A stretch of 32,366 nucleotides of DNA from Bacteroidota bacterium. GTDB taxonomy: Bacteria > Bacteroidota > Bacteroidia > Bacteroidales > FEN-979. Numbering within the stretch: position 1 is the stretch's first letter; each line of letters opens with the position of its first letter. Below the pieces are notes generated by a model. That model was not told the origin of the DNA. It was given only the letters and a program-made list of their open reading frames with translations, and made no database searches. The position numbers and the translations under genes were made by a program. Below, in pieces: positions 7,852-30,714 of this stretch. Location of the stretch: contig VGGL01000023.1 of the NCBI GenBank assembly GCA_016868575.1, positions 1-32,366 on the forward strand, in the 5' to 3' direction.

Positions 7852-8199
7852 TTATTTGTGTCCTTTGCGCCTGACTTGGTGTCCTTTGTGGTTAAATAGA
7901 CATTTTCTTAACCACGAAGGACACGAAGTATTGCACAAAGGGCACGAAGGTGTTGTTTTGAATTTGGGAGCAAAGGTAGCAGGAAGACCGATTACAGGAA
8001 GGAAAATTTTGACGAAAGTTGCGTTTTCTCCGGTGTGTTGGGTGATAATGATAGGTTGATTCATCTCTTTAAAAAATACTATTTCTGAAGTAATACCAAT
8101 ATGTCCAATGAACAGTTTTAGAAATACGGGGATTTTTGATGACCCAAGTCTAATGGAATAAGATATATCATCTTCGTTCTTTCCTAAGAGTTCAAACAT
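7852..8199 (-). pseudogene. Probable truncated remnant of a PD-(D/E)XK-family protein, with a repeat-derived C-terminus
   Basis: N-terminus MFELLGKNEDDISYSIRLGSSKIPVFLKLFI resembles the start of PD-(D/E)XK (PDDEXK_4-like) proteins. The last ~30 aa (CNTSCPSWLRKCLFNHKGHQVRRKGHK) are read from the 7856-7948 repeat. Confidence 0.45.
7856..7948. repeat. Imperfect inverted repeat / long hairpin of the 'ttaaccacgaaggacacgaag' type
   Basis: Left arm 7856-7895 reverse-complements to TTAACCACAAAGGACACCAAGTCAGGCGCAAAGGACACAA; right arm from 7908 reads TTAACCACGAAGGACACGAAGTATTGCACAAAGGGCACGAA. Confidence 0.85.
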
Positions 8200-8320
8200 A
8201 CTATGTACCTGTTTTACGTAAATATATACATCACTTATAAAAAGGTTGTTTTTGACGTATTGTCAAAGGTTATAAATAATACAGGTTCAAGTATTATGAT
8301 TTTACACGAATATTTATGTC

Positions 8321-9523
8321 TTAAAGGCATATATATCTTCTCTCCAAATACTCCAACCACCTTATGAATTCCTCATTTGGTAAGTATTTTCGACATATTT
8401 TAAAAAATCGTTCATAGGTCACGCCCTGAACCCTATCCCGATATTCAGGTTTCAACAACTCCTGATATCCCGAGATAACTTCGGTGAAGTGGATATTCCC
8501 TTCAGGGTAAAAGGTTAAGGAATGGAAATGACTATACTTTGGTTTATCTTCAATCAGGATACTCTCTCCCAATAATTGGTTCCTCCATACCTGACGGTAG
8601 TCATCTTGTTTTAGAAGAGAGAGAATACCTTTTTGAAAAACCCCGGATTTGCAAGATCGTCGGTAATAAAGGGAAGTCTCATCTTCTACATCCCTCTTTT
8701 CCTTTGATCCATTCTTTAATTCATAGGATCGTTCTGTGTATTTGACTTCAATCCCTAGTATTCCTTCTGAACCATCAACATGTCGGTATTCAATATAAGT
8801 ATCAAAGGAGGTTCTATCATCCAAATATTTAGACGGAGGAATTTCCGGATATTCAATTTTTAAAAGAGTGATCTGTTCGATAATACCACCAAGGATCTCA
8901 TTGAACACCTGTTTCCCAAATTCCTTATCCCGGTCCAACGGTATAAAAAAATTGAACGGGATATGTTCACTCCGAAGTAAATTACAATACAATGGTTTCC
9001 GAAAACCCGGATACCGGTTTTTAACTGAAGAAAAAATATAGAATCCCGAATAAAAATTCATACCCTTTTTACCATCTTCATCCAGAAGAACATTGATATA
9101 CCTATCAAACCAGACTTTTAAAACCTCGGAACGGAATCGGGATTGATGATTCCTACAATTTCTTTTGAAATCATAATCGGAAAGGTACTGGTTCTTGGAC
9201 AAGACACGAACCCAGTCCTCGATCTTGGTTTTTTCATATTTTGAAAGGGTTTTTAGATCAATCTTTTGAAGAGATTCAAGAATAGTCGGTTTAATATCCA
9301 TATGTACTAATACAGGCTGAAGTCTGTACCATTTTGGATCTAGTGTGAAGCTTGACCAATATGATTCAAATGATGGTATTATTTTTTCCCCACCGTCCCA
9401 ATCATCCAAATCGAACTTCATAAAAGAAAATTTCTTGATAAACATGGTGGTTCCGTCAACCGAGATGCGGAATATTTTTTCTTCACCACCTTCAATTCCA
9501 AAATGTAATACCAGTTCTTCCAT
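8321..9523 (-). CDS. Putative PD-(D/E)XK restriction endonuclease-like protein (resembles the PGN_0703 type)
   Basis: 400 aa; SFDTYIEYRHVDGSEGILGIEVKYTE (candidate D241...E259-V-K261) then YRQVWRNQLLGESI, a pattern of PD-(D/E)XK nuclease-like proteins. Start is 3 nt after the upstream gene's stop. Confidence 0.65.
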   Translation of the reverse strand: MEELVLHFGIEGGEEKIFRISVDGTTMFIKKFSFMKFDLDDWDGGEKIIPSFESYWSSFTLDPKWYRLQPVLVHMDIKPTILESLQKIDLKTLSKYEKTKIEDWVRVLSKNQYLSDYDFKRNCRNHQSRFRSEVLKVWFDRYINVLLDEDGKKGMNFYSGFYIFSSVKNRYPGFRKPLYCNLLRSEHIPFNFFIPLDRDKEFGKQVFNEILGGIIEQITLLKIEYPEIPPSKYLDDRTSFDTYIEYRHVDGSEGILGIEVKYTERSYELKNGSKEKRDVEDETSLYYRRSCKSGVFQKGILSLLKQDDYRQVWRNQLLGESILIEDKPKYSHFHSLTFYPEGNIHFTEVISGYQELLKPEYRDRVQGVTYERFFKICRKYLPNEEFIRWLEYLERRYICL

Positions 9524-9526
9524 CTG

Positions 9527-10459
9527 CTAAAATGTCCTTTTAAGTTCCGATTCGATTGAAATTCCAGTGGATAATGTAAGGAACAATGGTGAACAGAAAA
9601 AATATTTTCTATTCTTGTTTAACTCTCCTATCAACCAGGATAGTTTTATTTTATCCATTTTTAGCAATGATGAAAACATATCGACACGTTTATTCCAAAT
9701 ATTCCCTGTAGGAATTATAATATTTTCATGTTTAAATTTGACTTCAAAGGTTATTTCTTCATCAGAAGAAGAATCTTCAAATAATTTAAACTTAACTTTC
9801 ATGTGATTTATTCCGACAGGTCGACCTCCTGTGTTCTCCAGTGTCAGGTAAATTATACACCTATATGAAGTTTCATTATGTTCAACAAAATGAATGGATT
9901 CAACATTATAACTTGATAAAATCCTGTACTCTGGTATCACATTCTTGTTATCCCATAACATCAAATCCAAGTCATAACGGGTAGAAAAATCAGTTCGGGA
10001 GTTTTTTCTGACCAGTGAAATATTCTGGTATGAATTCTTTTCTTTTCCATTGGGATGATATGTCTTATAATTCCTGATGATATGGGGCTTATCCATTGAA
10101 GGGGGAATATGTATGATACTTAAAGAATGACCCTGATACCGCATATCAAAAGTATTAATCTCAAAAAGACGATCAACCCGTTTGTTTATAAGGTTCACAA
10201 TATCAGATGGATCGACCGGTAAAGTACTATCCTTGAATTCCTTTGTTTTTTCATCATACCCAATGACAATAATCCCGTCCGGACCGAAAGTATTGACCAT
10301 TGAAGTCGTGTCCTTGACAAATTCTTGGATGTCTCTTTCTTTTTTAAGATCATACCACTCCCGTTTGAAATCGAACTTGGAATTTTCGACCGTAAGTCCG
10401 CTGCTTGATTGTTCGATATAAGATGAAACTATCCTTTCAATATCTTCCTTTGTCGTCAT
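9527..10459 (-). CDS. Schlafen/AlbA_2-type ATP-binding domain protein
   Basis: 310 aa; SKFDFKREWYDLKKERDIQEFVKDTTSMVNTFGPDGIIVIGYDEKTKEFKDS...DIVNLINKRVDRLFE...YQGHSLSIIHIPPSMDKPHIIR, the AlbA_2 pattern (E/D-F-K, A/S-x-xNT-GG-like), followed by a beta-rich C-terminal region. Confidence 0.8.
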   Translation of the reverse strand: MTTKEDIERIVSSYIEQSSSGLTVENSKFDFKREWYDLKKERDIQEFVKDTTSMVNTFGPDGIIVIGYDEKTKEFKDSTLPVDPSDIVNLINKRVDRLFEINTFDMRYQGHSLSIIHIPPSMDKPHIIRNYKTYHPNGKEKNSYQNISLVRKNSRTDFSTRYDLDLMLWDNKNVIPEYRILSSYNVESIHFVEHNETSYRCIIYLTLENTGGRPVGINHMKVKFKLFEDSSSDEEITFEVKFKHENIIIPTGNIWNKRVDMFSSLLKMDKIKLSWLIGELNKNRKYFFCSPLFLTLSTGISIESELKRTF

Positions 10460-16627: not shown

Positions 16628-19600
16628 ATGCATATCATCATATCTATATTAAACAAAGTAAAATTCATTGCTGCCGCAATATTTCTTCCTTTTATACTCC
16701 ATGCAAATAACAACGCAGCAAACAATAGAGATTCCACTCTTTTTTCAGGGATCATTCATGTTGCCTTGATTAGTGAACGCGTGGATGCAGAAATCAGGAC
16801 TGCCGTTGCCAAAATAAATCAGGTTGAAGGAATTAGCGTCACAGTCATTACCCACAAACAGTCAGGTAGGCCAGGTAGCCTGAAAACATACGATATAGTC
16901 TGGATCCACCGTGCCGACAGCAGTGAGTTACGTAAACAGGAACGAAGTGAAGCCCTCATCACCTCTCTGAAGAAGTATGTTGAAGATGGCGGAAGCCTGC
17001 TGCTTTCTCAGGACGGATGCAGGTACCTGACCCTCCTCGGGCTTGAAAACAAACCTCCGGAGCTAAGAAATAAACCATGCATTGATGAAGGCTATGGCCG
17101 CAGGCTTGGGTTTCATGCTTTTCTGAGTCATCCGGTCTTTCAGGGGATGAATGGCGGAGCTTATGTGCTGGTGCCCAGGCAAGACACCAAAGTCCGCGTT
17201 TGGGGCTATTTTGGAGAAGATGTCATTCCCGCAGGAAGGGTTGTTGGCGTCGATTGGGACTACATATTTCTAAGGGAAGCATCGAAGGTCATCATGGAAT
17301 ATCGTCCTGGCAAGGGAAAGGTAATGGCCGTTGGCGGATATATGCAGTTCACTTTGCCGAATGATCACGCAGAACATCTTCTGCTCTTTACGAAAAATAC
17401 GTTGCGTTATCTCTCAGGGGAGAAAATGGACACACCCCTCAGACACTGGGACTTCTCCCCTCCTGTTGTCTCTGCCTGCCAGCCCGAATATGCGCTTCAG
17501 CCCATCTCCTACTCCCCATCAGTCAAATGGGATATTCCCTCCTCCCCCATCGATCTTACACAGCGATACGCTACGGATGATTTTTGGGATGTAGCCGGCG
17601 AACGGATGGTGCTGATGGGACAACAGCCTTCCGGCATCGATGAGATCTGGGCGCACCCTTTCATGGCGCTTAGGAATTATGAGGTTAGCATCAAGTTTTC
17701 ATACAGGGATACCATGTACCGGCTCCGAGATGAAAAGCCTGAAATCCAGGTGACTCCTGATGCTTTCATCCGCACCTACCGTTTCCCAAGAGCCTACCTC
17801 AAAGAGGTGATCACCGTTCATCCAGACCAGCCTGTTGCTGTTGTCCATTATGAATATCATGGGGTTTACGATGCCCGTCTCGAAATCCGCTTTCATTCTA
17901 TATTGCGACTGATGTGGCCATACTCCGAGAAAGTACTTGGGAATATCCAGTTCACCATGGACAAGGGATTGAACGGCTTCATGATCAGGGATCGATCTGC
18001 ATCCTTTGTTTGCATGCTTGGTGCCAACAAACGGTACGCACAGCAGACACTCGGCCCTGCCTCCAATTCGCTCTCTCCAAAAGAACCTCCAAACTCCGAG
18101 TCCGGGGAAGGATACAACAGGTTCCAGTCATCCGGGCTGTTTCATGTCAAGCTATCTCCAGTCGACTACTTCGATGTGGTTATTGCTGCGTCATCTGAAG
18201 GAATTGAAAAAACCAAGGCATACTATGAAGAGGCGCTGAAGAACCCGCTATCCGTTTACAAAGCCTCCCAAAACCATGCGCAGGAATTATTGAAGAACAA
18301 GATGACGGTGACGACTCCCGATGTCGACTTCAATACCGGGTATCGGTGGGCAATGCTTGGGACCGACCGTTTCTTTGTTCACACACCCGGGATCGGAAAA
18401 TCGCTGGTTGCTGGTTATGCGACCACCAAACGGGGATGGGACGGAGCACACAAGGTCAACGGAAGACCGGGCTATGCCTGGTATTTTGGACGTGACGGGG
18501 TTTGGTCGGCATTCGCCCTTTTGGGTTACGGCGATTTTGAGAAAGTGAGGGAGATATTGAAAACCTACTGCGCCTTTCAGGATCTGGACGGGAAGGTCTA
18601 CCATGAATTGAGCACCGGCGGTATCGTCCATTATGACGCTGCCGATGCCACACCACTCTTCCTGATCCTGGCAGGAAGGTATTATCAGTATTCCGGCGAT
18701 TCCCTCTTTATCCGTGAGATCCGGCAACCCATCCGAAAAGCAATGGCTTATTGCTTTTCGACCGACACCGACCAGGATCACCTGATTGAGAACACCAACG
18801 TAGGCCATGGCTGGATTGAAGGCGGACGGTTGTTTGGCTGTCACTCGACCTTATATCTCTCCTCCCTGTGGGCTGAGGCATTAGCGGCAACAGCTTTCCT
18901 TTGCTCGTCCTGGGGAGAATCTGAAGACGCTGCGCTTCTGAAGAAGGAATCGGATGAGGTTAAAATGAGCATTGATCAGCAATTCTGGGACAAGGAAGGG
19001 CAATATTTCTATGAAGGAAAGTTCAGGGATGGAACCTTTATGAAGGAGTTTACCATCCAGAACAGCATCCCGCTTTACCTTCGTCAGGTAAAGCATGAAA
19101 AATCCAAACCCATCCTGGAGGCTTTTGCCGGACTTGGATTTACTTCTGACTGGGGCTGCCGAATGATCCCAACGCAGTCTCCTCATTACCGCCCCAATGG
19201 ATACCATGATGGCAATGTATGGCCGCTGTTCACCGGATGGACAGCCCTGGCTGAATATGCCCAGAACAGGCCTGTCCAGGGATATTCTCATATCATGAAC
19301 AACCTGCAGAATTACCGTCATCGCGCATTGGGATTTGTCGATGAAGTGCTCCATGGGGATGTCTTTAAAGAATCGGGTGTCTGTCCTCACCAATGTTGGT
19401 CGGAAACCATGGTTTTACAGCCGGTGTCAGAAGGATTGCTCGGAATCAAGCCTGATGCTTCCAATAAAACTGTTGCGTTTACACCCGCTTTGCCGGCAGA
19501 CTGGGACTCTCTGCATGTGCACAACATCCAATACTGGAATGGTACGCCGGATATTGACATGAACAGGCAAAACGGTAAGTATCATTGGACATTCTCCAAC

Positions 19601-20050
19601 CATGGAACGGCAGAGGTGAGGATGTTGTTTACACCTCCTTCAATCCCGCAGATGAGTTACTCACAATGGAAGCTGGAGGGTGTTTCTCAGCCATGGCAGG
19701 GTGAGCTTGCACCACTTGCCGCCATTCCACTGATCATTAAAGACAAAATAACCCTTGAAATTCCTTACAGCGGGGGTATCTCTGTCCTCCCGGTATGCCC
19801 GGATCCGAAGCCTGGTCATGCATCCGAAAATATCCGGATCATCCGTGATGAATTGAACGGAAATCAGTATGAGATAACTGTGGAAGCCCAAGGGGGCACC
19901 CGGCATCAGTTTCGTGTCTACGCTGCAAACCTCCCGGGAATGGTAACGAACGGAACGATTGTCAATACGGAGAACAACATCTATACAATCGCAGTTGAAT
20001 TCCCTGAAAACGAGCCGATAACAAGGAGAACCATTACCATCAGTCTATGA
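16628..20050 (+). CDS. Secreted six-hairpin glycoside hydrolase with N-terminal ThuA/GATase-like domain
   Basis: 1140 aa; signal peptide; N-terminal VEDGGSLLLSQDG...GKGKVMAVGGYMQFTLPNDHAEHLLLFTKNTLRYLSG. C-terminal TTKRGWDGAHKVNGRPGYAWYFGRDGVWSAFALLGYGDFEKVREIL...DGNVWPLFTGWTALAEYA resembles amylo-alpha-1,6-glucosidase/(alpha/alpha)6 enzymes. Confidence 0.75.
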   Translation: MHIIISILNKVKFIAAAIFLPFILHANNNAANNRDSTLFSGIIHVALISERVDAEIRTAVAKINQVEGISVTVITHKQSGRPGSLKTYDIVWIHRADSSELRKQERSEALITSLKKYVEDGGSLLLSQDGCRYLTLLGLENKPPELRNKPCIDEGYGRRLGFHAFLSHPVFQGMNGGAYVLVPRQDTKVRVWGYFGEDVIPAGRVVGVDWDYIFLREASKVIMEYRPGKGKVMAVGGYMQFTLPNDHAEHLLLFTKNTLRYLSGEKMDTPLRHWDFSPPVVSACQPEYALQPISYSPSVKWDIPSSPIDLTQRYATDDFWDVAGERMVLMGQQPSGIDEIWAHPFMALRNYEVSIKFSYRDTMYRLRDEKPEIQVTPDAFIRTYRFPRAYLKEVITVHPDQPVAVVHYEYHGVYDARLEIRFHSILRLMWPYSEKVLGNIQFTMDKGLNGFMIRDRSASFVCMLGANKRYAQQTLGPASNSLSPKEPPNSESGEGYNRFQSSGLFHVKLSPVDYFDVVIAASSEGIEKTKAYYEEALKNPLSVYKASQNHAQELLKNKMTVTTPDVDFNTGYRWAMLGTDRFFVHTPGIGKSLVAGYATTKRGWDGAHKVNGRPGYAWYFGRDGVWSAFALLGYGDFEKVREILKTYCAFQDLDGKVYHELSTGGIVHYDAADATPLFLILAGRYYQYSGDSLFIREIRQPIRKAMAYCFSTDTDQDHLIENTNVGHGWIEGGRLFGCHSTLYLSSLWAEALAATAFLCSSWGESEDAALLKKESDEVKMSIDQQFWDKEGQYFYEGKFRDGTFMKEFTIQNSIPLYLRQVKHEKSKPILEAFAGLGFTSDWGCRMIPTQSPHYRPNGYHDGNVWPLFTGWTALAEYAQNRPVQGYSHIMNNLQNYRHRALGFVDEVLHGDVFKESGVCPHQCWSETMVLQPVSEGLLGIKPDASNKTVAFTPALPADWDSLHVHNIQYWNGTPDIDMNRQNGKYHWTFSNHGTAEVRMLFTPPSIPQMSYSQWKLEGVSQPWQGELAPLAAIPLIIKDKITLEIPYSGGISVLPVCPDPKPGHASENIRIIRDELNGNQYEITVEAQGGTRHQFRVYAANLPGMVTNGTIVNTENNIYTIAVEFPENEPITRRTITISL

Positions 20051-21747
20051 AAAAGATAATCGGTGTCATGATGGTATGGTTGGCATCCGTTCACCTGCCG
20101 GCACAGTATCTTTCGCATTTGCAGGTATCATCTGAAGATCCCCTGTATTCAACTTATGCCGCACCGCTGGAAAGGTCTTCCTACAAACTCGATCAGGGCT
20201 ACCAGATGCTTTGGAATGATCCGGGAAGGGGGATCGATTTTATCTCTTCCGACGGACCAAATCTGGGAATGGCCTTCGGCATCGGTGACCAGGTCAGGTA
20301 CACCCTGCAGGAAATGCATGCCAAACCAATTGTAACGGCCACCTACAGCGACATGGTTCGGTTCCATTACCGGCCATTCCGGGAGCTTGCGGTGGAGGTG
20401 TTTTTTGATGTTTACAGCTCTTCAACGGCGCTTCGTGAATATTCGATCCAAAACACCGGAACGGAAACCATCCAGGTCACCCTGATGCCCTTCTTGTACT
20501 ACCCTTCCATCGATGTATCCGGGAAGCGGATCATCCAGGAAGAGGACGGGACGTTTTCCGATCGCATCCGGAAGAAAAGGGACGGATGGATGGAGGAACA
20601 TCGCATCCCCGTTTTTGAAGACATCATGATGACGCATCTGATCTCCCGGAAGCCGGATTCCATCGTGACATTTCCCATCAATACAGAGTCATCTTTTGGA
20701 AAATCGAGGGAATGGGTCAACAGGTTCATGGAAGGGATCCCGAAGGCCATGCTGGGAAAGGGCCTGCGTTGTGTCATTTTATATCAAACCATCACCCTTG
20801 TTCCAGGTCAAACGGCTGTTGTAAGGGCAGCACTTCATCTTGAGGATATCCATGATCAGAAGTCATCTAATAGAGATATTTTAAGTATTGATTTACAATC
20901 TATTGAAGCTGCTAATCTAAAGCTTTACGCTAAGATGCCCAAACTTGATTTTGATACGGAAGATGAAGCTCTTACCTACTGGTCAGCATTCAACCTGATG
21001 CGCCAGTGCATGATGCAGCCTGAAGGGAAATGCACCTACAATTATTATGTTTTTTCGCGAGAACCAAAATGGGGCTGGGGATATGGCGGCCAGGTCTTTC
21101 ATGAGAGCCTGACGATGATGGCGTATGCCCTGATGGATCCGATGTCGGCGATGAATTCGCAGCGGGTATACATGGAACGGCAGGATCCGGATGGTTACAT
21201 CAACTACCGGACAGGCCCTTACCTGGATGAGACGATCATCCACAACGGGATGAAGACCTCCTCGGCGCCATGGTACAACTATCAAAACCTCGAGATATTC
21301 ACGATCATAGAAGACAAACAGTTTCTGAAGGAAGCCTATGTCTCAGGAAAAAAGTTCTACGGCTATTATTCTGCCTCGCGTGATTCAAACCAGAACGGAT
21401 TGTGTTCATGGGGCGCTCATGCAGAGCTTGAATCGGTGCGGGATGCGCGGGTTGGCGTATGTGATAAGGTAGGCCGGCCGGGAAATTTCGAAGGTCCGGA
21501 TGTCAATGCCATGCTGGTGAAAGAAGCCCGGTCACTTTCGCAGATGGCTGCCATCCTTGGATATGCTACTGAATCAAAGACTTTTAAAGAGCAGGCAGAT
21601 AGACGGTCAGCTCTGATCAACCGGAAGATGTGGGATGAGAAAGATGGTTTTTATTACAATGTCAACCTGGCCGTAAGACCTATATCTGGGCAGGGATTGT
21701 TGCAAGGATGCTTTTTGATGAAAGGTATACTTTTAATTAATAATTAA
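20047..21747 (+). CDS. GH63-like six-hairpin glycosidase, probably C-terminally truncated
   Basis: 566 aa; signal peptide; EPKWGWGYGGQVFHESLTMMAYALMDP, WGAHAELESVRDARVGVCDKVGRPGNFEGPDVNAMLVKEARSLSQMAAILG...MWDEKDGFYYNV then abrupt divergence to a stop inside a heptamer array. ATGA overlap with the upstream gene. Confidence 0.6.
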   Translation: MKKIIGVMMVWLASVHLPAQYLSHLQVSSEDPLYSTYAAPLERSSYKLDQGYQMLWNDPGRGIDFISSDGPNLGMAFGIGDQVRYTLQEMHAKPIVTATYSDMVRFHYRPFRELAVEVFFDVYSSSTALREYSIQNTGTETIQVTLMPFLYYPSIDVSGKRIIQEEDGTFSDRIRKKRDGWMEEHRIPVFEDIMMTHLISRKPDSIVTFPINTESSFGKSREWVNRFMEGIPKAMLGKGLRCVILYQTITLVPGQTAVVRAALHLEDIHDQKSSNRDILSIDLQSIEAANLKLYAKMPKLDFDTEDEALTYWSAFNLMRQCMMQPEGKCTYNYYVFSREPKWGWGYGGQVFHESLTMMAYALMDPMSAMNSQRVYMERQDPDGYINYRTGPYLDETIIHNGMKTSSAPWYNYQNLEIFTIIEDKQFLKEAYVSGKKFYGYYSASRDSNQNGLCSWGAHAELESVRDARVGVCDKVGRPGNFEGPDVNAMLVKEARSLSQMAAILGYATESKTFKEQADRRSALINRKMWDEKDGFYYNVNLAVRPISGQGLLQGCFLMKGILLINN

Positions 21748-22877: not shown

Positions 22878-25316
22878 CTATCTTCCGCTAAGAATGAATT
22901 TAACCGGTTTGATCAGGCTTGTCCCCCTGTATCCGAGGAAATAAATACCTGATGGAATTCCGGAAAGATCGAAGGTAAATACCCGTTCAGGGATTTGCCC
23001 GATCGAATGGACAGCTACCTCTTCACCGTATAAATTGATCACCACCAGTTCCCCTTTATCAGGCGGATCGGTGAAGACGACATTCAGTCTGCCGGTAGTT
23101 GGATTCGGGAAGAGGGTCATCAGGGGTTTGGCCTGCTCACCGATACCCACGCACTCCTCGTAGCTGAAGAGCACGGAGATTGAGTCAGCGTCGTTGCATC
23201 CGAAGGCATTCCCAACCATCACGGAGTAAGTCTGAAGATCATAGCCGAGTCCGGTTGTTGCAACCATGATGGTCTGAACAGTATCTCCTGTTGACCAGAG
23301 GAATGAAAACCCCGGGTTCCCTGCATTCAGGATGATCGAATCATAAACGCAAACCACTGTATCAGCAGGGAGGTTCACTTTCGGTCTGGGTGTAACCAGT
23401 ATTGAAAATTCCTCGGCCACACCATCACATCCAAGGGCAGTTGCAGTAACGAAATAACGTAAGGTATCAACTCCAGTACCCGTTTTTACAATTCGTTGCC
23501 GGATGACATCTCCTGAACCACCGGTATGGCCTGACACATTGGAAGAAGATGCAGAAGCTGTCCAGGAGAAGGTAGCATTGTTGATATTGGAGAGGAGGAA
23601 TATCTCGGTGGTATCGCCCGAACAAACGTGGGGTAAAGCAGATGAGAAGGTTACGGATGGTGCCAGGAACATGGTGATCACCACCGTCGTATCAGGGCCA
23701 ATGCAATTCCCTTTGGTTGGTGTGACTTTATAAATCACACTGTCGATGGCAGCCTGGTTATCCATGTACAAGGTTTGTCGGATGGCTGTCCCATCGCCAG
23801 GCCCATACCCTGTGACATGGCCGCCGGGATTGGTGGCCGTCCAGAAATAATACATATCCGGGATATTCCCGATAAACGTGGCATTGGTAGTAGCTCCGGA
23901 GCAATATCCAAAATCCAGGGAACTCCAGATTTCAGGTGGCGGATAGGTGATGATCATGACTGAGTCAAGATCGGTATTCTGGCAGGCATCGGTGGCTTCA
24001 ACCACATACCAGGTATGTCCTATGGGTGGATACACCGTCACAGAATCGTTTGCTCCGTTGGGGACATTCCATTGGTAGAAATAAGGGACATGGCCACCGC
24101 TAACATGTGCTACAAGGGTGATAGAGTCTCCATTGCAGATGATCGAATTTTGGATATCCTGTACAAGAAGCGGGGCATTATCATCAATATATACCGTATC
24201 ATATTGATACTGGGGACCAGAACAAGAAGGTTTGTGAACTTTCAGAAGCACATATTCTTGTCCCTCCAGATCGCTATCATACACGGGATGGATCACAAGT
24301 GCGGTGCTATCCTGTCCCGGTGGGATGACCAGGGAATCGGGAATATCTGTGTAATCAACCCCACGGGTAGCTGTTCCGAGCACATCATACCGAATGACAT
24401 ATGGTTTGTTGGATGTCTGGGAGATCACAAAAGAAACCGTTGCATCGGCACAGCCCTCCACCGCCACACCTGAGATGAGCGGGTTCGAAAAAGATGTACC
24501 CACATTCAGCACCGTACTTGAAAAACTGTTCTTCTGCAGAAAGACACCAGAATCATAAATGTGATCTACGGCATCGCCAATGGCTAATTTGATGTGGTAG
24601 GTTGAACATGGAATAACCGCGCTCCAGGCAATAAATCTGTTCGTTAGCCTATCATATTGGAAGTTAACTCCTCCGGCATTATTCCAGCTGCAAAATTGAT
24701 TGTTGCATATATTGTTGATCGTCACTGGCTGTGATGCACTGCCCGGCATTAGTGCGATATTCTTTGCGTTGTTACTATAGGATCCTGAAATCCCCGGACC
24801 GCTGAGAAAGAAACCGAAAGCATCATTATAACTTCCGCAGTATTCGTCAAATTCCTCCGATCCGAAGACATAATTGAAACGAACAGTATCAGACTGGGGG
24901 ATGAAATCAAACTCGATAACCCCTTTGTCGAAAGTCGTAGAGCCTGACAGCATATTCAAATCGGGATCCCCTGATCCGCCTGTATTTGATCCGGCATTAG
25001 GTGCATTATTAGGTCCAATGGCAATGCTCGCCTTACCACAAGTCAGCAATATGCCCGCATCTATCTTCAATTCAGTGGTTGCTGTGCCTTGGGTTGTAAA
25101 AGTCCCAACCTGCGTAGAAGTTATGACTGCTGAGGAGCCATTGAAAGTGGCGTTGCTCACAGTGATGCCTTCCCCGATAAACCACTCCTGGATCAACTGC
25201 TGGGGCGTCATATTCATGGCTGAACCTTCCGTAACAACCAACTGGGCCGATGCCTCACAGGTTAGAAAAGCCATCACCAACAACAGAAAATATCTGATAT
25301 TTTGCCTCTTGCGCAT
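22878..25316 (-). CDS. T9SS-targeted protein with choice-of-anchor L domain
   Basis: VIEFDFIPQSDTVRFNYVFGSEEFDEYCGSYNDAFGFFLSGPGI (choice-of-anchor L). C-terminal FPNPTTGRLNVVF...GIPSGIYFLGYRGTSLIKPVKFIL (T9SS type A). Likely start MRKRQNIRYFLLLVMAFLTCEASA at 25316; ORF track start 25430. Confidence 0.85.
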   Translation of the reverse strand: MRKRQNIRYFLLLVMAFLTCEASAQLVVTEGSAMNMTPQQLIQEWFIGEGITVSNATFNGSSAVITSTQVGTFTTQGTATTELKIDAGILLTCGKASIAIGPNNAPNAGSNTGGSGDPDLNMLSGSTTFDKGVIEFDFIPQSDTVRFNYVFGSEEFDEYCGSYNDAFGFFLSGPGISGSYSNNAKNIALMPGSASQPVTINNICNNQFCSWNNAGGVNFQYDRLTNRFIAWSAVIPCSTYHIKLAIGDAVDHIYDSGVFLQKNSFSSTVLNVGTSFSNPLISGVAVEGCADATVSFVISQTSNKPYVIRYDVLGTATRGVDYTDIPDSLVIPPGQDSTALVIHPVYDSDLEGQEYVLLKVHKPSCSGPQYQYDTVYIDDNAPLLVQDIQNSIICNGDSITLVAHVSGGHVPYFYQWNVPNGANDSVTVYPPIGHTWYVVEATDACQNTDLDSVMIITYPPPEIWSSLDFGYCSGATTNATFIGNIPDMYYFWTATNPGGHVTGYGPGDGTAIRQTLYMDNQAAIDSVIYKVTPTKGNCIGPDTTVVITMFLAPSVTFSSALPHVCSGDTTEIFLLSNINNATFSWTASASSSNVSGHTGGSGDVIRQRIVKTGTGVDTLRYFVTATALGCDGVAEEFSILVTPRPKVNLPADTVVCVYDSIILNAGNPGFSFLWSTGDTVQTIMVATTGLGYDLQTYSVMVGNAFGCNDADSISVLFSYEECVGIGEQAKPLMTLFPNPTTGRLNVVFTDPPDKGELVVINLYGEEVAVHSIGQIPERVFTFDLSGIPSGIYFLGYRGTSLIKPVKFILSGR

Positions 25317-25357
25317 CTGAGTTGCCCGGATCTTCTCTGTCATAACAAATTGAGATA

Positions 25358-25365
25358 CAAAGATA
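25358..25365 (-). promoter_or_regulatory. Candidate -7 box TATCTTTG for the anchor-L gene
   Basis: Reverse strand TTATCTTTGTATC upstream of 25316. Confidence 0.4.
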
Positions 25366-25400
25366 ATCAATTTATTATAACATCCTGAAGTCTTTATTCT

Positions 25401-25408
25401 TATTTTTG
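25401..25408 (+). promoter_or_regulatory. Candidate -7 box TATTTTTG for the 25450 gene
   Basis: TAnnTTTG match about 40 nt upstream of ATG 25450; divergent from the preceding promoter. Confidence 0.45.
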
Positions 25409-25449
25409 CAAGCCTGGTTATAGTTACCAATACTTAAAATGTAGATGCA

Positions 25450-26733
25450 ATGAAGATTTTTCAAAAGATTGCTTTCGTATTTCTGAGTATCTGTTTATAC
25501 AGTCACCTCCATGCTCAGGATATCACTTTGATCAAATCCACTGCTGATAAGGTCTATTATACCGAATTCATCAGTCCAACGGAAGCGTGGATAGCCGGAG
25601 GCTCCAACACTTTTTTGAAGCTTATCAAATCAGGGAATACATGGAATGCTACCCAGCAAAGCGCCTCATTTCTTCAGCAATTTGGCAGTGGGGTTCATGA
25701 TTTTCGCGGCATGGATTTCATCGATGCCAATACAGGATTAATAGCGCTGGATGTTGATGTTGCCCCTGCACCTATTTATAAATCGACCAATGGTGGAGTG
25801 AGTTGGTTACCGTTTTCACAGGTTTTTGGAGCCAGAAGAATCAACATGCTGAAGTTCTATAATGCTTCCTACGGCGTAGCATGTTCCCATACCGGACTTT
25901 TCATCACACTCAATGGAGGTACATCCTGGACCAAACAAACCAATCTGCCTCCCTCAATCGGTACTTCAGACAAATTCTATCATTGTTATCTCCATCCGGA
26001 TGGAACGATTTACGTAACCATGGAAGACGGTTTTTCAATCCATGGCAACTCAGGTGCTTATACCCTTAATAACCTCGCCTGGATCGATGATGGCATCCCA
26101 GCCGGTTTCCAGAGTGAACCCATCAAGGATGTGTATTTTTCAGAACTCAATGTGGGATGGATCTGTGGATTGGATACAGTGGATACACGTTACAGCCTGA
26201 TGAAAAATACCGGATCAGGATGGTCACCGGTAATGGTTCCCCAAAACACTCAACCCAATAGCCGGCTTAACTCCATCCTCTTCCAGGACCCCCAGCATGG
26301 CTATCTTGGCAATAATCTTGGCGAAGTGTTCAGAACCGCTGACGCCGGTGACTCATGGACACTGATAAGCCCAAGTCCCATCCAACAGCCCATCAACAAT
26401 ATGTCTGCTGTTCCGGGTAACATCAATGAATCAATCGTCACCTGTGATAATGGTGTCTTTCTCATCCTTGATACAAATACCGGCATTGAAGATGAAATAT
26501 TGACCCATAAGCTCACCATCTTCCCCAACCCGACAAACGGATACGTTCATCTCGACCTGACCAGGCCATCACGCGTCAAAGTAGTCAACTCGGTTGGAAC
26601 TGTGTTGATGGAAACCAATGTAAATGCAGGCAGTCAACTCCTGGATTTGCACTCGATTCCTGACGGACTTTACCATGTTTTAATCTATGGTGATGATCAT
26701 TTTGCCGCAGGAAAAGTGATACTGAAAAAATAA
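25450..26733 (+). CDS. T9SS type A sorting domain protein with YCF48-like/BNR beta-propeller
   Basis: 427 aa; repeated propeller motifs (AWIAGGSNTFLKLIKSG..W, YKSTNGGVSWLPF, ITLNGGTSWTKQ, FRTADAGDSWTLI); C-terminal TIFPNPTNGYVHLDL...IPDGLYHVLIYG...KVILKK. Confidence 0.85.
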   Translation: MKIFQKIAFVFLSICLYSHLHAQDITLIKSTADKVYYTEFISPTEAWIAGGSNTFLKLIKSGNTWNATQQSASFLQQFGSGVHDFRGMDFIDANTGLIALDVDVAPAPIYKSTNGGVSWLPFSQVFGARRINMLKFYNASYGVACSHTGLFITLNGGTSWTKQTNLPPSIGTSDKFYHCYLHPDGTIYVTMEDGFSIHGNSGAYTLNNLAWIDDGIPAGFQSEPIKDVYFSELNVGWICGLDTVDTRYSLMKNTGSGWSPVMVPQNTQPNSRLNSILFQDPQHGYLGNNLGEVFRTADAGDSWTLISPSPIQQPINNMSAVPGNINESIVTCDNGVFLILDTNTGIEDEILTHKLTIFPNPTNGYVHLDLTRPSRVKVVNSVGTVLMETNVNAGSQLLDLHSIPDGLYHVLIYGDDHFAAGKVILKK

Positions 26734-28668: not shown

Positions 28669-30714
28669 TTACAATATTATGATCTTCTTTTGATAGTTGT
28701 TAATATTGGTTTTTAGACAAATCATGTATACTCCTTTGGTTAGTCCGGATGACGACAGAGGGACAACATAACGATTCGGATATTGAGGATTTCTGATAAG
28801 TTCACCAAGCTCCTGAACAAATGATCCTTTCAAGCAATAAAGAATACATGAAACCGGCTTTTCTTCCTGAAGATCAAGATAGATGGCAGCCTGTCCGTGA
28901 ACGGGATTAGGTACCACCCGGATTACATTATTTCGATAACTTCCGGACAGATCGAAACCGGTAGGTATCACATCAATGTATTCGCTCCGGATCAGGCTAT
29001 CGGATGTAGATCCGTCGCTGACCTTCAGTTTTACGGCATACAATCCCGGATCCGTATAGGTAAATACCGGGTTTTCCTCTGAAGAGTCATCGATGCCGTC
29101 ATTCTGGAAATCCCATTCCCAGGAAATGACATTTCCCGCTGAGAGATCAGTGAAAGATACTGTTAAGGGAGCTACTCCGAATAAAGGCTCTCCCACAAAC
29201 ATGGCTGTCGGAAATGCGGTGCCGGTGATGGTAAAGGGACCTGTGGTATCGGCAGCATCAGGAATACCCGATTTCTGCGCGACAAACCGCAAATAGCAAT
29301 TATCTGAATAAGCCATGGGGACATTCCATTGATATCGGCCATTGTCGGGCACACCCGTAATAACTTCTTCATAAGGTCCACCGATACCGGTTACAGAGAG
29401 ATAGATTGAAACATTTGAGCTGTCTCCTCCCGGAACAGCCGTTATCCAATCGATGAATTGCACCGATTGCTGGTAAAAAACCTCATTTCCTCTTGGGAAT
29501 AGTCCATGGATTTTGAATTCCGTCGCGACTGATGTCTCTTTGTAACACTTCAGATAGTTTTTATAATTGATCCAGTTTCCCCATTCGCCTACCATGATAA
29601 TATCCGGATAGCCGTTGTGGTCAACATCCCCTCCTACCCTGAAAGCCTTGCATTCCTCGATGCCTGTGGCAATGAACTGGGCATCCGGCGTCCAGTTGCC
29701 TTGCCCGTCACCCAGCCACAGTTTAAATGTGCCGGTACCATAAGCACAAACATCGAGGTGCCCATCCACATTCATATCCCATACTTGGGTTTCTTCAAAA
29801 TTACCTGACGTTGGGAGCGTACCCGAGATGCTAATCCACAGGTTCTGGGAGATGTCCCATTTCCAAACCTGCACTCCGCCATTCCGGCAGAAAGCGAGAT
29901 CCTTGCTGCCATCTTCATCGACATCACCCAGAGAGGGTCCGCTGTAGCCGAGTGTTCCAGGTGATGGAAGGTTGCCGGTCGCATTGGAGAAGTTCCCATT
30001 TCCATCTCCAAAATAAACAACCCCATTCTGATGGGCAATCGCCATATCGGGGTATCCATCTTTGTTGATATCCCCGAATACCAATCTCTCACCGGAATTG
30101 CCTCCCAAAAAACCGAAAGTTTGAGTCCATGAACCATTCTGGTTATTACGATATACGTGGACCCCGGCACAACAACCGAAAGAGATGCTTCCCAGGTCAA
30201 GGTCGCCATCATGGTCGATATCAGCGAAGTCGCTGCCAAACATCCCCCAGTCTTCGCCATTTGTGGCCAGGCCATCATCCCAGGCAACCCAATTGAGCCC
30301 TGTGCCATCACCCAGCGCAACCTCAAGGATTTGGTCACCAAGATCTGTCGATGAATAATTATGATGTATCCCGTAGCCTACATCCATGATGCCGTCGTTG
30401 TTTACATCTCCAACGGCCACACCGCCATAGCCCAGGTCGCCGTACATCTGAACAGCCCAATTCCCCTGACCATCTCCAAACCAGACCATGATGCCGTGCT
30501 CTGTAGCATTGATGTTGGGACTTCCGTGATCCCCTACCGAAATGATATCAATTTTACCATCATCATTGATATCGGTGAATTCAAGTTCGGTCATTCCTCC
30601 TTCCCATGATGGAAAAGCAAGACCGGTTGAAGACTCCACATAGTTGAGCACTTCATTTTGTGCCAAAAGCCTGATGGAAAAGGCCAACATGGTTAAAATA
30701 AATAATGTTTTCAT
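28669..30714 (-). CDS. Secreted FG-GAP/VCBS repeat protein with PKD domain and T9SS C-terminal domain
   Basis: 681 aa; repeated DINDDGKIDIISVGDHG, DVNNDGIMDVGYG, DIDHDGDLDLGSI, DINKDGYPDMAIA; PKD VSFTDLSAGNVISWEWDFQNDG; C-terminal VVPNPVHGQAAIYLDL...LTKGVYMICLKTNINNYQKKIIIL. Confidence 0.88.
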   Translation of the reverse strand: MKTLFILTMLAFSIRLLAQNEVLNYVESSTGLAFPSWEGGMTELEFTDINDDGKIDIISVGDHGSPNINATEHGIMVWFGDGQGNWAVQMYGDLGYGGVAVGDVNNDGIMDVGYGIHHNYSSTDLGDQILEVALGDGTGLNWVAWDDGLATNGEDWGMFGSDFADIDHDGDLDLGSISFGCCAGVHVYRNNQNGSWTQTFGFLGGNSGERLVFGDINKDGYPDMAIAHQNGVVYFGDGNGNFSNATGNLPSPGTLGYSGPSLGDVDEDGSKDLAFCRNGGVQVWKWDISQNLWISISGTLPTSGNFEETQVWDMNVDGHLDVCAYGTGTFKLWLGDGQGNWTPDAQFIATGIEECKAFRVGGDVDHNGYPDIIMVGEWGNWINYKNYLKCYKETSVATEFKIHGLFPRGNEVFYQQSVQFIDWITAVPGGDSSNVSIYLSVTGIGGPYEEVITGVPDNGRYQWNVPMAYSDNCYLRFVAQKSGIPDAADTTGPFTITGTAFPTAMFVGEPLFGVAPLTVSFTDLSAGNVISWEWDFQNDGIDDSSEENPVFTYTDPGLYAVKLKVSDGSTSDSLIRSEYIDVIPTGFDLSGSYRNNVIRVVPNPVHGQAAIYLDLQEEKPVSCILYCLKGSFVQELGELIRNPQYPNRYVVPLSSSGLTKGVYMICLKTNINNYQKKIIIL

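Follow-up and report, generated by a model that had tools for sequence, protein, structure and literature searches.

A probable two-effector defence cassette pairing a Schlafen-type AlbA_2 protein with a PD-(D/E)XK nuclease in a Bacteroidota genome

Introduction

Do two closely spaced genes of a Bacteroidota bacterium, one encoding a Schlafen/AlbA_2 protein and the other a PD-(D/E)XK nuclease, form a single defence system, and if so, of what kind? We examined this pair (gene 1 and gene 2, encoding protein 1 and protein 2) within the window, by which we mean the whole stretch of DNA that was analysed (32,366 nucleotides of contig VGGL01000023.1). An earlier note, made by reading the sequence, had proposed an ATP or nucleic-acid sensor paired with a nuclease effector; the nuclease and its link to defence have stood, whereas the ATP sensor has fallen away, as protein 1 lacks an HATPase domain. 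The pair is probably a two-effector defence cassette that combines known parts in an unlisted way. Both effector families are known and both have already been linked to defence. What is new in the resources searched is their combination without a core system, together with an unlisted domain at the N-terminus of the nuclease.

Results

The two genes are closely spaced and look foreign to the genome

Gene 1 ends with TAG at 9529-9527 and, after three nucleotides (CAG), gene 2 begins with ATG at 9523 on the same strand, which confirms the coordinates and the 3-nt spacing reported earlier (Table 1). At its other end, gene 1 shares 23 nt (10437-10459) with the end of the transglycosylase gene upstream, and since its start lies inside the last codons of that gene, co-transcription from that side is possible. 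Both ORFs have a GC content of 34–37% and a GC3 of 34–36%, compared with ~48% and ~57–64% for the adjacent genes; given this low GC and GC3 relative to their neighbours, the two-gene segment looks foreign to the genome. A further ORF at 7852-8199 is also GC-poor (37%), has no Pfam match and encodes a repetitive "NHKGHQVRRKGHK" stretch at its end; it may be part of the foreign segment. In an empty-site comparison, the transglycosylase homologues of six related genomes had other neighbours, so the insertion cannot be dated by synteny.

The neighbouring genes in the window (for a transglycosylase, a radical SAM enzyme, a C1 peptidase and an aminotransferase) are of housekeeping type, and no BREX or type I restriction-modification (RM) core genes adjoin the pair among the flanking genes of the window. 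Flanks of this kind, rather than a defence island, count against reading the pair as a defence cassette. Elsewhere in the window, two adjoining genes (16628-21747; 1140 and 566 aa) each have matches in the MGH1-like and trehalase-type glycoside hydrolase families, and three large secreted proteins (22878-25430, 25450-26733 and 28669-30714) have Por_Secre_tail-type C-termini (type IX secretion), with one of these matches scoring just under the cut-off.

Table 1 Positions of the two genes and associated features in the window.
Feature	Position	Strand	Remark
Schlafen/AlbA_2 gene (gene 1)	10459-9527	-	310 aa
PD-(D/E)XK nuclease gene (gene 2)	9523-8321	-	400 aa
Nuclease N-terminal domain, residues 1-112	9188..9523	-	recurs elsewhere, not in Pfam
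Codons for F240 and invariant D241	8801..8806	-	computed from ORF start 9523
Codons for E259-V260-K261, catalytic motif	8741..8749	-	computed from ORF start 9523
GC-poor stretch	7852..10459	.	between transglycosylase and C1 peptidase genes

Relatives of the two genes occur apart, several of them beside defence genes

The pair was not found a second time by protein, family and profile searches of the sampled order, phylum, plasmids, phages and viral contigs; the sole match of the pair search in genome contigs (L016) was spurious. In the stretches examined, relatives of gene 1 occurred without the nuclease, and relatives of the nuclease occurred without gene 1's type of AlbA_2. The earlier note had held that a lack of conserved pairing would speak against its proposal, and in the genomes searched the homologs are indeed not conserved as a pair, which weakens the case for one system and does not disprove it. 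As the sampled genomes are a fraction of the public ones and close relatives of both proteins are few, the missing second copy is weak negative evidence.

Proteins similar to protein 1 in length and layout were found in the same taxonomic order (L061, L020 and L133), along with a longer one (L132). The nuclease was beside none of these four within the stretches examined, and L061 lies directly behind HsdS/HsdM. Relatives of protein 2 were found in 27 of the 397 sampled genomes of the phylum. One comes right after BrxL and PglZ (L130), another is near PglZ and BrxHII (L131), and four are in type I RM loci (L118, L121, L122 and L127, with L118 and L122 recognised by sequence likeness only). Other relatives are plasmid-borne, behind DUF1156/DUF499 in Rhodococcus and in a stretch with drmC in Nocardioides, or lie on a viral contig near an HsdM/HsdS-like locus (by sequence likeness); several more have ordinary neighbours. 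The nearest approach to the pair is L118, where a different AlbA_2 protein is ~0.6 kb from the nuclease; L121 has an AlbA_2 protein, again of another type, beyond the type I methylase. PD-(D/E)XK and Schlafen nucleases are recurrent auxiliary effectors of BREX-type systems according to a 2026 survey (PMC12839542), which also describes Schlafen-linked systems as tRNA-cleaving anti-phage modules. The position of several relatives next to genes of BREX, DUF1156/DUF499 and type I RM systems, together with this survey, is what chiefly supports a role in defence.

In agreement with the earlier failure to recognise the pair as a named system, no PADLOC system was matched by both proteins, with only PDC-S50 (a weak, partial match to protein 1, E 2.6e-5) and KwaB (0.012) appearing. 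On the basis of PADLOC and NCBIfam, a known named system was rejected. A PHROGs search gave nothing informative, and the literature searched contained no match for REase-ARP, PGN_0703, PDC-S50 or CbCash.

That both families are found mostly apart, often as accessories of other systems, and that no second pair turned up would fit chance neighbours, that is, two independently acquired defence-type genes, each working alone or left over from a larger system, with no joint mechanism. We consider this alternative somewhat unlikely, as the 3-nt spacing, the shared strand and the shared low GC argue for one co-inherited unit, and the close relatives are too few for the absent second copy to weigh much.

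Protein 1 is better read as an RNase effector than as an ATP sensor

Protein 1 matches SLFN_AlbA_2 (PF04326) in Pfam at residues 25-134 with 36 bits (curated cut-off 25.3; E 1.1e-8), bearing out the AlbA_2-like N-terminus that had been noticed. A profile of the AlbA_2 domain, built from protein 1 and twelve relatives (n=13), was compared with all PDB chains and found CbCash (E 3.8e-19), followed by the animal Schlafens SLFN14, SLFN8, SLFN11, SLFN5 and SLFN12; protein 1 alone reached CbCash only at E 0.1. The AF2 model of protein 1 has a pLDDT of 72 overall and ~90 over residues 31-160, and is poor in the C-terminal half. Its best Foldseek match is the tRNase domain of rSAMD9 (9o0d; E 9.9e-6, probability 1.00), at a TM-score of only 0.28-0.39 and from a model that is partly of low confidence, with DIP2311, the SAMD9 DNA-binding domain and SLFN11 next in rank. 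The beta-rich C-terminal half agrees with weaker hits to ApaG, LEA14-like and arrestin-like proteins, and we tentatively, and with low confidence, assign it as an Ig/ApaG-like beta-sandwich.

The earlier description of the first protein as ATPase-like, or as an ATP sensor, was rejected because the ATPase domain is absent: HATPase_c_4 (PF13749) has no Pfam match in protein 1, and protein 1 is not among the 2/13 aligned AlbA_2 proteins in which it is present. Considering that the best structural matches are the SAMD9 tRNase and related AlbA_2/Schlafen domains, an RNase effector would be the better reading.

Schlafen-type RNases require two Glu and one Asp (PMC11221667). The triad positions in protein 1 are E25, D30 and E70, which align with E206, E211 and D249 of SLFN14; all three are acidic, and the second and third are swapped relative to Schlafens, reading D and E in place of E and D. 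CbCash also has D at the second position. D69 was ruled out as the third triad residue, since the alignment with SLFN14 and CbCash places E70 there. The third acid is absent from three relatives in the alignment (L020, L132 and L135), which, together with the swapped positions, makes RNase activity of protein 1 uncertain, if plausible.

These same two features, along with the binding of nucleic acid by AlbA_2 domains (SAMD9 and pAgo literature), would also suit a catalytically dead protein 1 that binds nucleic acid or acts as a regulatory partner, a sensor controlling the nuclease as the sole effector. We regard this as unlikely given that protein 1 still has an acidic residue at all three triad positions, that the second-position D is shared with a protein of solved structure (CbCash) and that a tRNase domain is its closest structural match.

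Protein 2 is a PDDEXK_13 nuclease

Residues 115-398 of protein 2 match PDDEXK_13 (PF20796) in Pfam with 185 bits (cut-off 27; E 2.2e-54), and the protein also matches the related REase-ARP family (PF22558, E 2e-27). Among the 17 aligned sequences that contain the nuclease core, E224, D236, D241, E259, K261 and Y262 are invariant (17/17), and Q311 and R314 are kept in 16/17, with a gap in the remaining row. The AF2 model of the full-length protein is confident (pLDDT 86). It had no match at E <= 0.001 when compared with the PDB and viral models using Foldseek, so assignment to the superfamily rests on sequence, by which protein 2 is clearly predicted to be a PDDEXK_13 nuclease. The PD-(D/E)XK core originally proposed (D241, E259-V-K261) agrees with both the Pfam match and the invariant residues, and these results, together with the defence neighbourhoods of relatives, uphold the identification of a nuclease and the leaning towards defence. 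The N-terminal half had been called unrecognised, which is true of only the first ~112 residues.

It is very unlikely that protein 2 works by itself as a restriction enzyme, modification-dependent or type II-like, with gene 1 being a transcriptional or unrelated regulator: Pfam does call the relative PF22558 a restriction endonuclease, but the weak Foldseek matches of the nuclease to EcoO109I and MspI fall short of significance (E > 0.2, TM 0.1-0.3), the window genes scanned include no methyltransferase, and protein 1 has no HTH match in Pfam.

The N-terminal domain of the nuclease recurs in other proteins

Residues 1-112 of protein 2 had no credible Pfam match across the 16 domain members scanned and no sequence match in the PDB. 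By profile search, the domain was found in 8/43 genomes of the family, 9/344 of the order and 5/377 of the phylum, the last five all from the same class. Besides fronting nucleases (the window protein, L052/L062 and L057), it occurs as a standalone protein of ~105-135 aa, and it also makes up the C-terminal end of a Cys-rich repeat protein (L053) and of small P-loop (kinase-like) proteins (L163:1009-1842 and L164:991-1830). Judged from its sequence matches, it is a mobile domain absent from Pfam, and a binding or adaptor role would be a guess. We rejected the idea that it is specific to defence, since copies lie beside ordinary genes and also form the C-termini of P-loop proteins; still other copies adjoin secreted or signalling proteins, so its occurrence extends beyond defence.

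A second, standalone copy is encoded in the same genome (G000:C85:8029-8361, locus L055:8023-8385); the genes for a 226-aa protein and an MBL-fold protein lie downstream of it, and an HsdM-like gene runs divergently from it. In two genera (L053:4620-6210 and L055:6078-8385), the standalone domain has an MBL-fold gene of the same type nearby, and in L053 it is preceded by a nuclease-like protein of 413 aa. At L083:5005-6448, the domain follows a gene for an AbiEii-type nucleotidyltransferase (Pfam PF08843, E 1.4e-28).

Discussion

A proposed mechanism

Our best explanation, held with moderate confidence, is a co-acquired two-effector defence cassette in which the Schlafen arm would be an RNase and the nuclease a DNase; we infer these activities, as well as the joint action, the trigger and phage defence. 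The cassette would be horizontally acquired, probably co-transcribed and of an anti-invader (phage or plasmid) type. An infection signal would be read by the beta-sandwich of protein 1, by the N-terminal domain of protein 2 or by both. The AlbA_2 domain, most likely an RNase that possibly acts on tRNA and is controlled by the C-terminal beta-sandwich, would cut RNA and thereby stall translation, and protein 2 would cut DNA, with its N-terminal domain most likely giving targeting, activation or protein contact. A more elaborate version, in which one trigger frees both the RNA-cutting Schlafen arm and the DNA-cutting PD-(D/E)XK arm and the N-terminal domain is an adaptor common to both that can be joined to further proteins of the same bacterial family, draws on the standalone copies of the domain, among them the copy that this genome carries beside an HsdM-like gene; we consider it quite improbable.

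If the pair protects its host, it would be a minimal cassette joining two effectors that have so far mostly been described as accessories of BREX-like systems, and it would offer a case in which to test, in bacteria, what triggers Schlafen RNases. Several proteins of the lineage may share the N-terminal domain as a module.

Comparison with known systems

Bacterial Schlafen anti-phage proteins are reportedly described in a 2025 preprint by Taboada et al. (cited in PMC12839542). With such proteins, protein 1 shares an AlbA_2/Schlafen RNase-type domain followed by a distinct C-terminal region. In the BREX-linked bacterial Schlafens, a histidine-kinase-like domain and a wHTH are present (PMC12839542), whereas protein 1 has a putative beta-sandwich, lacks an HATPase and is partnered by a nuclease. 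CbCash (PDB 9ylu, 297 aa) is similar in length to protein 1 and has the same E-x4-D at the first two triad positions, in an alignment with the AlbA_2 profile that is confined to the AlbA_2 part. The tRNase domain of SAMD9 and the N-terminal domains of Schlafens have the fold and the acidic triad positions in common with protein 1, which in contrast is bacterial, has two of the three triad residues D/E-swapped and is without helicase or SAM domains. The PADLOC candidate PDC-S50 has an N-terminal AlbA_2 in common with protein 1, to which the match is confined (residues 22-129). Finally, protein 2 shares its whole nuclease domain and catalytic residues with the PDDEXK_13 (PF20796) nucleases, a family frequently found beside defence genes, and differs from them in having an extra N-terminal domain and in being partnered by an AlbA_2 protein rather than by core genes of BREX or type I RM.
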